Shown piece by piece: positions 19,218-37,319 of a stretch of 64,000 nt of DNA; the first letter of the stretch is position 1; each line of letters starts with the position of its first letter. A program made the position numbers and the translations under genes. This DNA is from Catellatospora tritici (GTDB lineage Bacteria > Actinomycetota > Actinomycetes > Mycobacteriales > Micromonosporaceae): positions 125,940 through 189,939 of the forward strand of contig NZ_JAHRCY010000014.1 in assembly GCF_019083965.1 (NCBI RefSeq), read 5' to 3'. The notes below the pieces were generated by a model. That model saw only the letters and a list, made by a program, of their open reading frames with translations, was not told where the DNA came from and did not search any database.

Positions 19218-20497
19218 CCTTGAGCGCCTCTTCGGACATCCACGCCCGCCGCGTCGCCGCCGTCGCCAAGGGCGTCGGCTCGACCATCACGTCCTACGTC
19301 GAGCGGGCCTCCGGTGGCACGCTGCGCGACGTCGACGGGCGGGAGTGGATCGACTTCGCGGCCGGGATCGCCGTCACCAACGTGGGCAACAGCGCCCCGG
19401 CGGTGGTCGAGGCGGTCAAGCGGCAGGTCGAGCTGTTCACGCACACCTGCTTCATGGTGGCGCCGTACGAGTCGTACGTATCGGTGTGCGAGCAGCTCAA
19501 CGAGCTGACCCCGGGCGGCCACGAGAAGCGGTCGGCGCTGTTCAACTCCGGTGCCGAGGCGGTCGAGAACGCCGTCAAGATCGCCCGGTACGCCACCGGG
19601 CGGCAGGCGGTGGTGGTGTTCGACCACGGCTACCACGGGCGCACCAACCTGACCATGGCGCTGACCGCGAAGAACATGCCGTACAAGCACGGGTTCGGGC
19701 CGTTCGCCCCGGAGGTCTACCGGGCGCCGATGTCGTACCCGCTGCGCGACGGCCTGACCGGCGAGCAGGCCGCCGCCCGCGCCATCGACGAGATCACCAC
19801 GCAGGTCGGCGCCGCGAACGTGGCCGCGATCGTGATCGAGCCGGTGCAGGGCGAGGGCGGCTTCGTCGTTCCCGCACCCGGCTTCCTGCCCACCCTCGCG
19901 GCGTGGGCCAGGGCCAACGGGGCGCTGTTCGTCGCCGACGAGATCCAGACCGGGTTCTGCCGCACCGGGGACTGGTTCGCCAGCGAGCACGAGGGCGTGG
20001 TGCCTGACCTGATCACGGTCGCGAAGGGCATCGCGGGCGGGCTGCCGCTGGCCGGGGTCACCGGTCGCGCCGAGCTCATGGACGCGGTGCACGTCGGCGG
20101 GCTCGGCGGCACCTACGGCGGCAACCCGATCGCCTGCGCCGCCGCGCTCGCCTCGATCCAGACCATGCGCGAGCTGGACCTCAACGCCGCCGCGCGGCGT
20201 ATCGGTGGGGTGCTCACCGAGCGGCTGACGAAGCTGGCCGCCGCTCACCCCCAGATCGCCGAGGTACGCGGCCGCGGCGCCATGGTCGCCATCGAACTGG
20301 TCAAGCCCGGCACCCTCGACCCCGACCCGGTCCTGACCGGCGCGGTCAACAAGGCGTGCCACGCGGCCGGCCTGCTCACGCTCACCTGCGGCACCTGGGG
20401 CAACGTGTTCCGCTTCCTGCCGCCGCTGGTGATCTCCGACGCCGACCTCGACCGCGGCCTGTCCATCCTCGAAGAAGCCTTCATCACCACCGCCTGA
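19214..20497 (+). CDS. gabT: 4-aminobutyrate transaminase
   Basis: A PLP-dependent class III aminotransferase that converts GABA and 2-oxoglutarate to succinate semialdehyde and glutamate. The 427-residue protein starts at the ATG overlapping the patD stop; the same frame is open for 200 bases upstream inside patD but those codons are a shadow. Motifs include NSGAEAVENAVKIAR, the cofactor aspartate region FVADEIQTGFCRTG and the Schiff-base lysine in ITVAKGIAGGLPLAG. Followed directly by a repeated palindrome that likely terminates the transcript. Confidence 0.93.
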   Translation: MTLSASSDIHARRVAAVAKGVGSTITSYVERASGGTLRDVDGREWIDFAAGIAVTNVGNSAPAVVEAVKRQVELFTHTCFMVAPYESYVSVCEQLNELTPGGHEKRSALFNSGAEAVENAVKIARYATGRQAVVVFDHGYHGRTNLTMALTAKNMPYKHGFGPFAPEVYRAPMSYPLRDGLTGEQAAARAIDEITTQVGAANVAAIVIEPVQGEGGFVVPAPGFLPTLAAWARANGALFVADEIQTGFCRTGDWFASEHEGVVPDLITVAKGIAGGLPLAGVTGRAELMDAVHVGGLGGTYGGNPIACAAALASIQTMRELDLNAAARRIGGVLTERLTKLAAAHPQIAEVRGRGAMVAIELVKPGTLDPDPVLTGAVNKACHAAGLLTLTCGTWGNVFRFLPPLVISDADLDRGLSILEEAFITTA

Positions 20498-20498
20498 G

Positions 20499-20552
20499 GT
20501 AAGGAAGGGCCCCTTCTGCTGCGTAAAGCGATAAGAAGGGGCCCTTCCTTAC
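20499..20552. repeat. Dispersed palindrome family B, copy 1
   Basis: Perfect 19-base arms (20499-20517, 20534-20552) around a 16-base loop. The right half, including the loop end GTAAAGCGATAAGAAGG, is identical over 32 bases to the palindrome at 37264-37319. It sits between two convergent stop codons (gabT and the TROVE gene), starting two bases after the first and ending four before the second, so it can serve as a shared terminator. Confidence 0.92.
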
Positions 20553-20556
20553 GCGC

Positions 20557-22089
20557 TCAGAAGGGGAACGTGGTGCGCTCGGCGGACTCCAGGAGGGCGA
20601 TCATCGAGAAGGCGGCGTCGGTGAGGCCGCCGAAGGTGTAGCGGCGGCCCACGGGGGCGGTGTGGCCGAGCTTGTAACCGGCCAGGTTCCACGTGTAGAC
20701 GGGAATGTGCGCGGGCACCGCGGCCGCCACGTCGTGGCTGCCGTGGAAGCTCGCCTGCTCATCGGTGAGGATCACCACCCGGTCGTGCTTGTCGTAGTGA
20801 GCCCGGACCGCCTTCTCGGTCTCAGTGCCCATGCCGAAGAACCAGCCGCCGTCCTTGAAGCGGCGCACCGCCGACAGCACCGACTCGCCCGGCCGCAGGT
20901 CGAAGACCTTGGTCCGGTCCGAGAACGACACCACCGTCGCCGCCTGCGCCCGCACCGCCACAGCCAGGCCGAACAGCGTCGCCGCGTCCCAGCAGCGCAG
21001 CGAGCCGTCGCGGCTGAACTGGCTGTTCATCGAGCCGGACGTGTCGATCAGCACCAGGGTGCGGCCGTCCAGCTTCGGCACGTTGCCGAGCGCGAACTGC
21101 AGCGCCTTCTCCAGCGGGTACGCCCAGCGCAGGCTCGGTGCCGCGTTGTACGCCGACAGGAACCGCATCGGCAGCACGCGGGAACGGTCCACCTCGTCCG
21201 GGTCGGACAGCTTCGCCGCCACGGCAGCAGCGACCTCGTCGGACACACCCGCCGCGTCGAAGTTGCGCAGGTTGCGCAGTAGCGCCAGGTAGCCCATGGA
21301 CGGGATCATCGCCGACCATGCCGCCGCGTCCAGCGGACCCTGCCGCCAGCCCGCCAGCGCCTCCCAGGTCATCCCCGCCGCGGCGAGGCGCCCCGGGTCG
21401 AGCACGGCCGCGCGCTCGGGCACCGGCAGCGACATCAGCTCCGCGCGGGCGCGCAGCACCGACAGCACCTCGGGCAGCGGGTTGTCCCGCTGGTGGCGGC
21501 GGTCCAGCGCGTGCCGGAACAGCTCCGCCTGAGTCGCGTCGCGCGCGGCCGGGTGGGTCAGGTCGAGGACGTCACCGAAGCGCACCGCGGCGCTGTCGGA
21601 GTCGTACTTGAGCAGGCTGCGCTCGTGGTATAGACGCACCGCCGCGTCGGCGACCCCGCGCTTGACCGGCTTGGGCAGCGCCCGGCCGTAGCGGGACAGC
21701 CAGTACGCCAGCGCCTCGCCCGGCTCGTCGGCCCGCTGCAGTGCCGCGTCGACAACCTTGCGCGAACCGGGGATACCGGCCGCGACCTGTGCCTTCGCGC
21801 CCTCCAGTGCGGCGACCACGGAGGCGGTGCGCAGGTTGGCGCCGAGGCGCAGCCACGGCACGAACCGCGCGAACCAGTCCGGGTCGGCGACAGCCACCTG
21901 TGCGACCAGCGCCAGGAAGCGCGCGTCGCGGTCCTTGGCGTTCTCGTAGAACGTCTGCTCACCGACCATGTTCGCCACGGCGAGCAGGAACAGCTCCTGC
22001 TTCGGCTCGCGAGCGAACCCGGGCGCGCCCTGGGCCGTGGTCCCGGCCGGACGCTGCTTGAAAGCGGTGGCGACGTTGAACTTCGCCAT
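20557..22089 (-). CDS. TROVE domain protein (Ro60/Rsr homologue) with C-terminal vWA domain
   Basis: Ro60-like proteins form an RNA-binding ring of helical repeats that holds Y RNAs and the ends of misfolded RNAs. The 510-residue protein has a TROVE domain over roughly residues 1-330 (TFYENAKDRDARFLALVAQVA; YRRGLPKPVKRG-like region LPKPVKRGVADAAVRLY) and a von Willebrand A domain whose metal site DTSGSMNS begins near residue 349, completed by ILTDEQ. ATG 22089 follows a GGAGGGA site. Directly upstream is an array of tRNA-like modules, which are the obvious candidate RNA partners. VapBC lies beyond them. Confidence 0.95.
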   Translation of the reverse strand: MAKFNVATAFKQRPAGTTAQGAPGFAREPKQELFLLAVANMVGEQTFYENAKDRDARFLALVAQVAVADPDWFARFVPWLRLGANLRTASVVAALEGAKAQVAAGIPGSRKVVDAALQRADEPGEALAYWLSRYGRALPKPVKRGVADAAVRLYHERSLLKYDSDSAAVRFGDVLDLTHPAARDATQAELFRHALDRRHQRDNPLPEVLSVLRARAELMSLPVPERAAVLDPGRLAAAGMTWEALAGWRQGPLDAAAWSAMIPSMGYLALLRNLRNFDAAGVSDEVAAAVAAKLSDPDEVDRSRVLPMRFLSAYNAAPSLRWAYPLEKALQFALGNVPKLDGRTLVLIDTSGSMNSQFSRDGSLRCWDAATLFGLAVAVRAQAATVVSFSDRTKVFDLRPGESVLSAVRRFKDGGWFFGMGTETEKAVRAHYDKHDRVVILTDEQASFHGSHDVAAAVPAHIPVYTWNLAGYKLGHTAPVGRRYTFGGLTDAAFSMIALLESAERTTFPF

Positions 22090-22193
22090 GACAGATCCCT
22101 CCCCCGAGGGTGGTCGGCGGGCGCGCAGCATCCACCCACCGGACGATGAGGAATGGTGCGCCTCCCGAGATCAAGACGGCGGCGGCGTATGGA

Positions 22194-22347
22194 TTCTTAT
22201 GCGAGAAGAAGTAGCCGCAACCTGCGCACCGGGAGGTGCTGAATCAAACTAGACCAGAGATTTCGGTGGCACCAATGCTTTATCCATGCGGCCCGTCCGA
22301 GATCGGGTCGGCGACGGCAGATGGCGCTCTGGGCCACTGAGCTACGC
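22194..22347 (-). ncRNA. tRNA-like unit 3 (lacks a T arm)
   Basis: Reading leftward: a tRNA 5' half with a canonical D arm (GCTC ... GAGC, 22323-22347), then P3, Q3 (22221-22235), then a perfect anticodon-arm hairpin (22194-22210) with five pairs and loop CTCGCAT, which has the U33 and A37 of a real tRNA. No T arm or acceptor 3' strand follows; sequence runs straight into P4. It cannot be a functional tRNA and is either a decayed unit or a structured RNA of its own. Confidence 0.55.
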
Positions 22348-22359
22348 GCATCCGGTATG

Positions 22360-22504
22360 GATACGGGCGGGATTCGAACCCGCGACCTCCCCATTACAAG
22401 TGGAGTAGCCGTAACCTGCGCACCGGACCGACCGCATGGGCGTCTCCCGAGGTCAATGTCGGCGGCGGCACAGTCGACTGCTCTGCCGATTGAGCTACCG
22501 GACC
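22360..22504 (-). ncRNA. tRNA(Thr,UGU)-like unit 2 with a 73-nt insertion
   Basis: Leftward from 22504: a 7-base acceptor strand GGTCCGG, TA, and a canonical D arm GCTC-AATCGGCA-GAGC, then A (22504-22479). A 73-base insertion with modules P2 and Q2 follows (22478-22406). Then come an anticodon arm (22405-22389) with loop CTTGTAA (anticodon UGU), a 5-base variable loop, a perfect T arm (22383-22367) and the 3' acceptor strand CCGTATC (22366-22360), which pairs 6 of 7 with GGTCCGG. Without the insertion the length is exactly that of a tRNA. The insertion sits between positions 26 and 27. No CCA is encoded. Confidence 0.7.
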
Positions 22505-22508
22505 CTGC

Positions 22509-22660
22509 GGCCCGAGCGGGACTCGAACCCGCAACCCGTTGATCCAAGAAGTATCCGCTGCCTGCGCACCGGGAGACGAGAGACAATCTATGGCGGATAC
22601 GGCTGTGCCACAACGTGATTACGAATGCCGCGCGCCAGAGATCGAGGAGGCGGCGGCGTC
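22509..22660 (-). ncRNA. tRNA-like unit 1
   Basis: Contains P1 (22622-22660), Q1 (22561-22575), a weak anticodon region, a perfect T arm (22516-22532, five pairs and loop TTCGAGT) and the acceptor-like strand TCGGGCC (22509-22515). The inner five bases of that strand pair with CTCCCGG at the start of Q1. No clean 5' half with D arm is present, and the anticodon arm is three bases short with poor pairing. It resembles unit 2 but is more diverged. Confidence 0.55.
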
Positions 22661-22779
22661 CCGTCACCGGGCGAGTCATTTCACAGGCGTCGGCGGCACC
22701 CTCGTGGGCGTACGCCAGCGGCCTCCATGGAGTAGCCGTCGCCGACGCACCTGGCGCGCGGCCCGTCGAGTGTATGCGA

Positions 22780-23211
22780 TCAGCCCCGCTGAGAGTCGCC
22801 GTGCCCGCTGCCCCTCGGGACGATCCACTCATGGGGCTGGCCAGTGACCTCGGCGATGCGCTCGAAGTCGCTGTCGTAGTGCAAGATCGTGGCGCCGTGC
22901 GCCTCTGCCGTGGCGGCCACCAGCAGGTCAGGTATGCCGACGCTGCGATGGTGGCCACGCAGTGCCAGCAGTTGCATGACGTCGAGCATGCGCCGCTGAG
23001 CGGCATCGTTCGTGTCCAGCCAAAGCACCGTCTCGTATTCGGCCCGCATCGAGGTCAGCTCGGCGTGGTTACGGGCGGAGAAGCACAACTCGGCCGCGAT
23101 GACCGGACACGTCGCGATCGATCCGTCGAGGAAGCGCGTGCTCATCGACTGCCGTGCCGCGTCGCTGTAGCGCAACTGCTCCCACGCCGACTTGTCGACG
23201 AGGTAGATCAC
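22780..23211 (-). CDS. vapC: PIN-domain ribonuclease toxin VapC
   Basis: VapC toxins are Mg-dependent endoribonucleases, many of which cut tRNA or rRNA. The 143-residue protein starts MIYLVDKSAW at a GTG (23211) that overlaps the antitoxin stop by four bases. The PIN acidic residues are visible: Asp in LVDKS, Glu in AAELCFS, Asp in GIPDLL and Asp in HYDSDFERIA. The gene ends about 120 bases before the tRNA-like array on the same strand, so read-through into the array is possible. Confidence 0.93.
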   Translation of the reverse strand: MIYLVDKSAWEQLRYSDAARQSMSTRFLDGSIATCPVIAAELCFSARNHAELTSMRAEYETVLWLDTNDAAQRRMLDVMQLLALRGHHRSVGIPDLLVAATAEAHGATILHYDSDFERIAEVTGQPHEWIVPRGSGHGDSQRG

Positions 23212-23417
23212 TGCCACGCTTCCCGGTCGACGTCCGTCTCCGCGAGCCGGTCGGCCGTCAGCAGCGCTATCCGCATGAACTGGTCCACCCGTTCGCGGCG
23301 GCGCTGGGCGATCTCGCGCAGTGCCCGGTTCACCGTCTCGACCTTGGTCGAGGTGCCGAACTCGGCCATCGCCAGGGCGAGCGCGTCCTCGTCGATGTCG
23401 ATGAGAGTCTTCGCCAC
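23208..23417 (-). CDS. vapB: VapB-type antitoxin
   Basis: A 69-residue protein, AKTLIDIDEDALALAMAEFG then TSTKVETVNRALREIAQRR, typical of the short ribbon-helix-helix VapB antitoxins of actinobacteria (type II VapB/MazE-like). The N-terminal part binds DNA and the C-terminal tail is expected to wrap the toxin. It starts at a GTG with GGGGA about 7 bases upstream and overlaps vapC by four bases. A palindrome lies directly upstream and may be its operator. Confidence 0.92.
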   Translation of the reverse strand: MAKTLIDIDEDALALAMAEFGTSTKVETVNRALREIAQRRRERVDQFMRIALLTADRLAETDVDREAWQ

Positions 23418-23442
23418 GACCGTCCCCTGTCTGTCCGCCGAG

Positions 23443-23493
23443 CGCCCCTCGGGGTATATCCCACCCAGTCATGAAGATATCCCCGAGGGGGCG
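23443..23493. promoter_or_regulatory. Inverted repeat upstream of vapB
   Basis: CGCCCCTCGGGG-TATATC on the left (23442-23460) mirrors GATATCCCCGAGGGGGCG on the right (23476-23493), with one-base slips; each arm is itself partly palindromic. It begins 26 bases upstream of the vapB start and 20 bases from the stop of the next gene. It could be the VapB autoregulatory operator, the terminator of the saccharopine-dehydrogenase-like gene, or both. Confidence 0.55.
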
Positions 23494-23512
23494 TGGCTCA
23501 CAAGGCCGCAGG

Positions 23513-37263: not shown

Positions 37264-37319
37264 GGTTTGAAAGGGCCCCTTCTTCGTCGTAAAGCGATAA
37301 GAAGGGGCCCTTCCTTACG
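37264..37319. repeat. Dispersed palindrome family B, copy 2
   Basis: Contains the same 32 bases as the right half of copy 1 (GTAAAGCGATAAGAAGG and onward) and a partly degenerate left arm with 14 perfect pairs next to the loop. It lies between the convergent FAD oxidoreductase and DUF3499 genes, ending three bases before the latter's stop codon. It also marks the right edge of the block inserted between manB and the DUF3499 gene. Confidence 0.92.

Follow-up and report, generated by a model that had tools for sequence, protein, structure and literature searches.

The locus addressed here raises the question of which RNAs are encoded between a TROVE-type gene and a VapC-type toxin gene on the 64-kb stretch of Catellatospora tritici DNA that was analyzed (in the following, the window), and what these RNAs contribute to the encoded proteins. 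The original prediction had described the gap as alternating P and Q modules with several tRNA-like arms, forming one leftward unit together with the TROVE gene and VapBC, and had proposed RNAs resembling Y RNAs as partners of Ro60. On balance, the favored explanation is that the gap represents four Y RNA genes serving the downstream Ro60, with the tRNA-like head of one of them (Y2) acting as bait or sentinel.

The TROVE gene is located at 20557-22089 on the minus strand (ATG at 22089-22087 by reading; the reading frame is also open from 22131). Its product matches the Pfam family PF05731 (TROVE) with 52 bits compared to a cut-off of 23, the match covering residues 268-331 only. For the Pfam family vWA_Ro60, a score of 18.8 bits was obtained, which is below the cut-off of 27.7; despite this, residues 342-505 match vWA structures. 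The AlphaFold model of the protein (mean pLDDT 85, 31 sequences) resembles the TROVE crystal structure 9kop (Z 29.8), the Ro60 protein of Thermus phage phiLo (Z 27.2), D. radiodurans Rsr 2nvo (Z 25.2 over 446 residues) and human Ro60 9nen (Z 24.4 over 446 residues). Structures representing a vWA domain only reached Z 13.9 or lower, far under the Ro60 matches. Moreover, the same Ro60 chains were recovered by a profile search with the protein. Based on its predicted fold, the TROVE gene of the window is a gene encoding a Ro60 protein. Behind this gene, a palindrome with arms AAGGAAGGGCCCCTTCT is located at 20501-20550. Its arm has three matches in the window, where none is expected, and one arm occurs again at 37300-37316.

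Upstream of the Ro60 gene, four copies of the P element were observed (22206-22235, 22400-22429, 22546-22575 and 22727-22756), all on the minus strand and leading into the TROVE gene. Read in this direction, from the VapC-type gene to the TROVE gene, each of the four units starts with a P copy and ends with a Q copy. P pairs with Q, and an identical stem results when Y1 and Y2 are folded individually. The so-called modules thus correspond to the opposite strands of a single stem, and four small RNAs make up the gap. The four P copies and their matching Q strands were recovered as described originally, only not as separate modules.

The four units share this stem and differ in their heads. Y4 (22627-22762, minus strand) features a 12-bp closing helix of the shared stem and a head of two hairpins unrelated to tRNA. 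Y3 (22444-22575, minus strand) carries a permuted tRNA head with three arms (T, acceptor and D), its T arm being located at 22532-22516 and its D arm at 22498-22480 of the same strand; it matches model R1, which was derived from 15 units belonging to other genera with the window excluded, at 92.8 bits. Y2 (22290-22433, minus strand) possesses a complete, circularly permuted tRNA head and matches R1 at 98.6 bits (E 2e-22). Y1 (22158-22239, minus strand; R1 32.1 bits) represents a short Y RNA consisting of the shared stem and a small hairpin head, and a mini T arm is found in its counterparts from several relatives. The permuted T-acceptor-D head is present in Y2 and Y3, and none was seen in Y1 and Y4.

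Single-sequence folds of the units are only modestly better than those of shuffled sequences (z -2.5 for Y1, -0.4 for Y2, -1.1 for Y3 and -1.7 for Y4), and the Y RNA case rests on comparison across species. Taken alone, the comparison with shuffled sequence, which had been suggested as a check of the idea, would fail for Y2. Consensus folds of sequences from relatives gave the same stem architecture for Y1 (10 sequences) and Y4 (7 sequences); two-sided changes in one sequence or more affect three pairs of Y1 and four of Y4. Regarding the Rfam model for YrlA (RF02553), Y3 scored 45.7 and Y2 25 bits, which does not reach the gathering cut-off of 69, and the best score in 18 loci of relatives was 46.7 bits; these values refer to the units tested in the window and the 18 loci. 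Because Y3, Y2 and their relatives remain below the cut-off, they were not filed under RF02553. Judged by their place, the shared stem and the compensatory changes, Y1 to Y4 look like divergent bacterial Y RNAs.

Promoter-like sites precede Y3 (22585-22613, minus strand, TTGTGG / TAGATT) and Y1 (22246-22275, minus strand, TTGGTG / TAGTTT). The underlying pattern (TTGNNN, 16-19 bases, TANNNT) occurs at a steady distance from 17 of 30 units in seven Catellatospora loci, with 0.26 expected by shuffling, where the pattern had been defined once the sequences were known and the shuffles preserved base counts only. Ten of the 13 units lacking it, Y2 included, directly follow another unit (by reading). 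A strict sigma-70 scan of 20300-23500 returned no site, and terminator matches in the same interval were at chance level. The genes do share one strand, as predicted, but the notion of one leftward unit is too simple, because promoter-like sites recur before Y3 and Y1.

The most elaborate of the four RNAs is Y2. Along the minus strand its arms follow in the order anticodon arm (22389-22405; stem strands CTCCA and TGGGG, loop CTTGTAA, anticodon UGU), T arm (22367-22383), acceptor stem, whose end is closed by a short loop (22347-22366), and D arm (22326-22345). The segment separating the P strand from the T arm can form a 5-bp stem with a 7-nt loop, followed by AGGTC. Y2 appears to correspond to a complete tRNA that is opened between the D and anticodon stems, with the Ro60 stem inserted at this point. 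Since the acceptor end is closed, the molecule should not be chargeable. The normal layout of a tRNA gene does not apply to Y2, as the arms are not arranged as acceptor, D, anticodon and T, and a free 3' end is missing. ARAGORN called a tRNA-Thr gene at 22359-22429, and this region scores 35 bits with Rfam RF00005 (cut-off 29). The call starts in the P strand and hence reads across the permuted molecule; it was rejected as its arms are out of order. The search with covariance models that had been recommended gave YrlA scores under the cut-off and an RF00005 score above it. In the lowest-energy fold of Y2 alone, a shifted hairpin replaces the anticodon arm and the canonical D arm is absent.

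With respect to the predicted arms, the two canonical T arms and two D arms were borne out, on the minus strand towards the TROVE gene. Of the two anticodon-type arms, the one with the UGU loop was located in Y2 (22405-22389); the second, with CGC, was not found, since Y3 failed the hairpin test. Several different tRNA-like units had been expected: two of the four units are tRNA-like, and only one of these features an anticodon arm.

From 84 sources, 125 hits were aligned. In this alignment, 96.5% of the cells are paired as compared to 78.2% after shuffling and at most 57.8% with the partner strand slid, and two-sided changes occur in 22 of 29 pairs; the 84 sources were chosen and the alignment (A5) was fitted to the model, so that pair counts lean towards the model. 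The anticodon stem is paired to 91.2%, shows two-sided changes in three of its five pairs, and has AU, GC and UA all common at its closing pair. Sliding this stem by one or two bases in 78 arms, which had been pre-chosen for at least four of five pairs, lowered pairing from 94.9% to 64.1% or less.

The anticodon arm is widespread beside Ro60 genes. Within the family it was identified in 41 of 48 units with an insert of 20-24 nt, and in 41 of 69 Ro60 loci, of which 12 are from the genus Catellatospora and 57 are near full-length family loci; the units were already known when this insert class was defined, and four array rows were dropped from the family count. The underlying family search gave a Ro60 (TROVE) match in 74 of 250 genomes, some upstream stretches being cut by contig ends. 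In a named actinobacterial set, which overlaps with the family set, the arm is present in 50 of 59 inserts and 44 of 80 loci, and the records bearing it include Nocardia, Amycolatopsis, Streptomyces, Planobispora and Nonomuraea. Inserts failing the arm test numbered 7 of 48 (family) and 9 of 59 (named). A1 comprises 37 of the 41 arm-bearing units: L067 and L103 were lost for want of a Q match, and L101 and L107, which look dubious yet were kept in the counts, were left out. By motif search, 27 of the 80 named loci revealed no unit. Furthermore, the arm was detected in 26 of 80 Ro60 loci on IMG/VR contigs, which may be prophage or misassigned. In a scan of the class, 92 of 345 genomes passed E 1e-7, including weak matches such as tRNAs, and 48 reached 60 bits; a Ro60 gene was located within 1.5 kb in 25 of 29 fetched loci, and four were without one.

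Within the genus, 11 genomes including that of the window were surveyed, and three showed no TROVE match. A distant TROVE type (L024-L028) was observed as second copy in four Catellatospora genomes and as the only copy in G007; by motif, it is accompanied by a short Y RNA and no tRNA-like head. In the Catellatospora loci L020-L023, a gene of a few hundred bases, resembling phosphopantetheinyl transferase by eye, lies between Y2 and Y1. The window itself is present a second time in its genome (G000, contig C12, 246773-310772, 100% to 99.8% identical), and the tRNA place left of it is also doubled at the same offset, which reflects either a large duplication or an assembly artefact. Further Y RNA copies elsewhere in this genome were considered and rejected: outside the two array copies, R1 gave six matches of at most 38.1 bits, five of them coinciding with tRNA genes. 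The best of these matches (contig C9, 38383-38521, L113, 38.1 bits) coincides with no listed tRNA.

The proposal of Y-RNA-like partners of Ro60 is supported by the Ro60 fold, the shared stem with compensatory changes and the recurrence beside actinobacterial Ro60 genes. That the RNAs are divergent Y RNAs, one of them equipped with an anticodon arm, is regarded as very likely from these comparisons.

Regarding function, Ro60 would bind the basal stem common to Y1 to Y4, which is the part expected to be recognized by this protein, and, by analogy with YrlA, would hold the head of Y2 out to tRNA-recognizing proteins. The anticodon arm might then bait anticodon nucleases, or modification enzymes that read this arm, and the anticodon would switch as the targeted tRNA-directed enzymes change. 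According to passages of PMC8394870, tRNA modification enzymes accept YrlA as a substrate, and in passages of PMC7790460 YrlA is proposed as decoy or competitor for an anticodon nuclease; the same source states that Salmonella YrlA is not cut by the nuclease studied, which counts against the bait. The step assigning a role as bait or sentinel for tRNA-directed enzymes to the Y2 anticodon arm is offered tentatively and, taken on its own, is less likely than not.

A simpler role is a real possibility, if not the favored one: the head might act as plain tether or gate, docking a partner such as PNPase or covering the Ro60 ring, roles that have been reviewed for YrlA, with the anticodon arm serving as a structural prop or forming incompletely and positions 34-36 drifting freely. 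A complex of Rsr, YrlA and PNPase has been described (in passages of PMC8394870), and Y3 as well as many units of relatives are devoid of the anticodon arm, both of which fit such a role. The two possibilities differ in what they demand of the anticodon loop, for which 78 non-redundant arms (identical units removed) were available. These arms present 28 anticodons. U33 and A38 are near-fixed (T33 and A38 in 72 of 78 arms each), and entropy peaks at positions 34-36 (1.75, 1.87 and 1.76 bits) as compared to 0.46 bits at 33 and 0.50 at 38. In six Catellatospora genomes, a stretch of 59 nt is identical except for positions 34 and 35 and the compensating pair 31-39, the anticodons being UGU, CUU, UAU, UAU, GAU and GAU; the seventh locus (L019) is without such a Y2-type unit. 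Mapping the anticodon onto a tree of 45 Ro60 proteins required a minimum of 30 changes among 21 states, with paralogous units mixed and the arm nearest to the Ro60 gene used for loci with several arms.

In line with drift, no significant enrichment of the triplets for anticodons used by real tRNAs was observed (71 of 78 compared to 66.9 expected, P 0.06), five of the 28 being absent from the real-tRNA set. Given this result, the triplets may simply be unconstrained. The positions around them argue against an idle arm. Positions 36 and 37 agree on G or not-G in 74 of 78 arms (shuffled mean 51.4, highest 62), and in 37 of 41 when only distinct loops are counted (shuffled mean 23.8). G36 is followed by G37 in 15 of 15 Y loops, the corresponding value for real tRNAs being 32 of 53. 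Moreover, T32 is present in all ten NGG loops, as in the real proline loops TTCGGGA and TTTGGGA, and 48 of the 78 loops exactly match the loop of a real tRNA with that anticodon, as compared to 33.7 with flanks shuffled (highest 44). Since the units are related by descent, shuffling overstates their independence and all of these tests are weakened. Nevertheless, the coupling of 36 and 37, T32 and the loop identities speak against pure drift and suggest that a tRNA-like loop matters.

A folding control on the arm points in the opposite direction. Folded as an isolated 17-nt sequence, the arm formed at least four of its five canonical pairs in 63 of 78 Y units, compared to 178 of 181 real tRNAs. 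When the variable loop was included, the lowest-energy fold retained them in 20 of 78 Y units and 163 of 181 tRNAs. The arm of Y2 in the window behaves likewise, folding canonically without the variable loop and preferring a shifted hairpin with it. The set of real tRNAs was drawn from the 11 array loci and from stretches surrounding 30 of 63 places in the genome of the window, and three ARAGORN calls (L081, L097 and L100) overlapping strong Y RNA matches were left out of the tRNA counts. Either the canonical register is held by the folded core, as suggested by the compensatory changes, or the arm is only partly formed, which would suit the tether. Owing to this control, the odds for the Y RNA identity and for the bait step were both lowered a little. 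A tether whose anticodon arm is idle is no less likely than the bait step considered by itself.

The bait reading gains a wider form from tRNA genes found near related loci. In 11 of 69 Ro60 loci (L077, L078, L081, L086, L090, L093, L096, L097, L100, L103 and L106), the Y RNAs are preceded by an array of 4 to 29 tRNA genes; all 151 of these genes are co-directional with the Ro60 gene, and in 8 of the 11 loci no more than 500 bases separate the end of the last tRNA gene from the Ro60 match. The window has no such array, the one call across Y2 being its sole ARAGORN tRNA. According to passages of PMC5966550, a tRNA array unit comprises at least 20 tRNA genes in a dense block, and passages of PMC12803027 call mycobacterial tRNA arrays a putative antidefence system. 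In the wider form, Ro60 would display exchangeable anticodon baits on a fixed permuted tRNA frame; rapid anticodon switching would reflect the interception or reporting of anticodon nucleases of phages, plasmids or rivals, and the arrays before some Ro60 loci would provide a replacement supply for cut tRNAs. As a whole, this scenario is doubtful.

A mobile context is suggested for one of the arrays. The Ro60-Y RNA-tRNA array of G174 (L345, contig C5) is located near DpdA-, Mom- and HNH-type genes, surroundings that point to a phage or mobile origin; among three proteins tested in each of G036 and G026, none of the DpdA, Mom or HNH type was found. On IMG/VR contigs filed as viral (L306, L311, L317, L320 and L333), Ro60 is accompanied by 5 to 22 ARAGORN tRNA calls nearby.

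The neighboring toxin gene offers another explanation for Y2, namely as bait or antidote for VapC. A VapC-type PIN toxin gene (22780-23211, minus strand, approximate start; PF01850 41.8 bits, cut-off 23.6) is indeed located directly upstream of the Y RNAs, and this is also the case in G008. Seven Catellatospora loci encode the closer TROVE type; of these, two have VapBC, one VapB only and four neither, where VapB was assigned from a small upstream open reading frame read by eye. Moreover, VapC of G008 is 92% identical to that of the window, yet the adjoining Y2 anticodons differ (CUU vs UGU). A link between Y2 and VapC is very unlikely, and the original inclusion of VapBC as part of the system is not supported: it is a neighbor and no conserved partner.

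Y2 might also be a permuted tRNA gene whose product is cut from the stem, circularized, for example with the help of RtcB, and then trimmed into a functional tRNA. All tRNA arms are there in permuted order, and the genome does encode RtcB; its one match lies on another contig (C5), by which RtcB was dismissed as a neighbor. Closely related species have different anticodons in an otherwise fixed arm, and the stem outside the tRNA part is among the most conserved columns, making a working tRNA very improbable. Least credible of all are decaying tRNA genes or chance repeats, for which the ARAGORN and Rfam tRNA calls across Y2 and the weak single folds could be quoted, and against which stand the compensatory changes across genera and the location of the units beside Ro60 genes.

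Returning to Y RNAs encoded for Ro60, these RNAs, their protein and their tRNA mimicry are already known. Passages of PMC8394870 attribute D, T and acceptor arms to YrlA and describe Ro60, YrlA and PNPase as a machine degrading structured RNA, and passages of PMC11472068 report a circular permutation. The window resembles the YrlA system (RF02553, with Ro60/Rsr) in its location beside Ro60, in a basal stem formed from both ends and in the permuted T-acceptor-D head of Y3 and Y2. It differs in comprising four RNAs with four kinds of head, in scores below the Rfam cut-off for the units tested, and in the anticodon arm of Y2, which is absent from the Rfam YrlA consensus. The Salmonella RNA repair operon rsr-yrlBA-rtcBA likewise combines Ro60 with Y RNAs and shares the idea that YrlA competes for an anticodon nuclease (passages of PMC7790460), but features rtcBA in the operon, whereas the only RtcB match of the window's genome is the one on contig C5. 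The Mycobacterium tRNA array units (passages of PMC5966550 and PMC12803027) are similar to the dense arrays of many different tRNA genes before the Y RNAs of some relatives and differ from the window, which is without an array.

A search for terms did not return 'Ro60' in PMC5966550 or 'TROVE' and 'Y RNA' in PMC12803027, and titles and abstracts of the open-licence literature revealed neither a Y RNA with an anticodon arm nor a link between Ro60 and tRNA arrays; both may be partly in print. Since the YrlA model passed none of the units tested, Y RNAs of such kind may be under-annotated in actinobacteria. Y2 would represent a new kind of tRNA look-alike that is testable as a decoy, and its changing anticodon letters on a constant frame provide a direct handle on the function of bacterial Y RNAs. 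If the bait step is true, Ro60 would take part in the conflict over tRNAs, and a possible purpose would emerge for the arrays of tRNA genes located next to related Ro60 genes.
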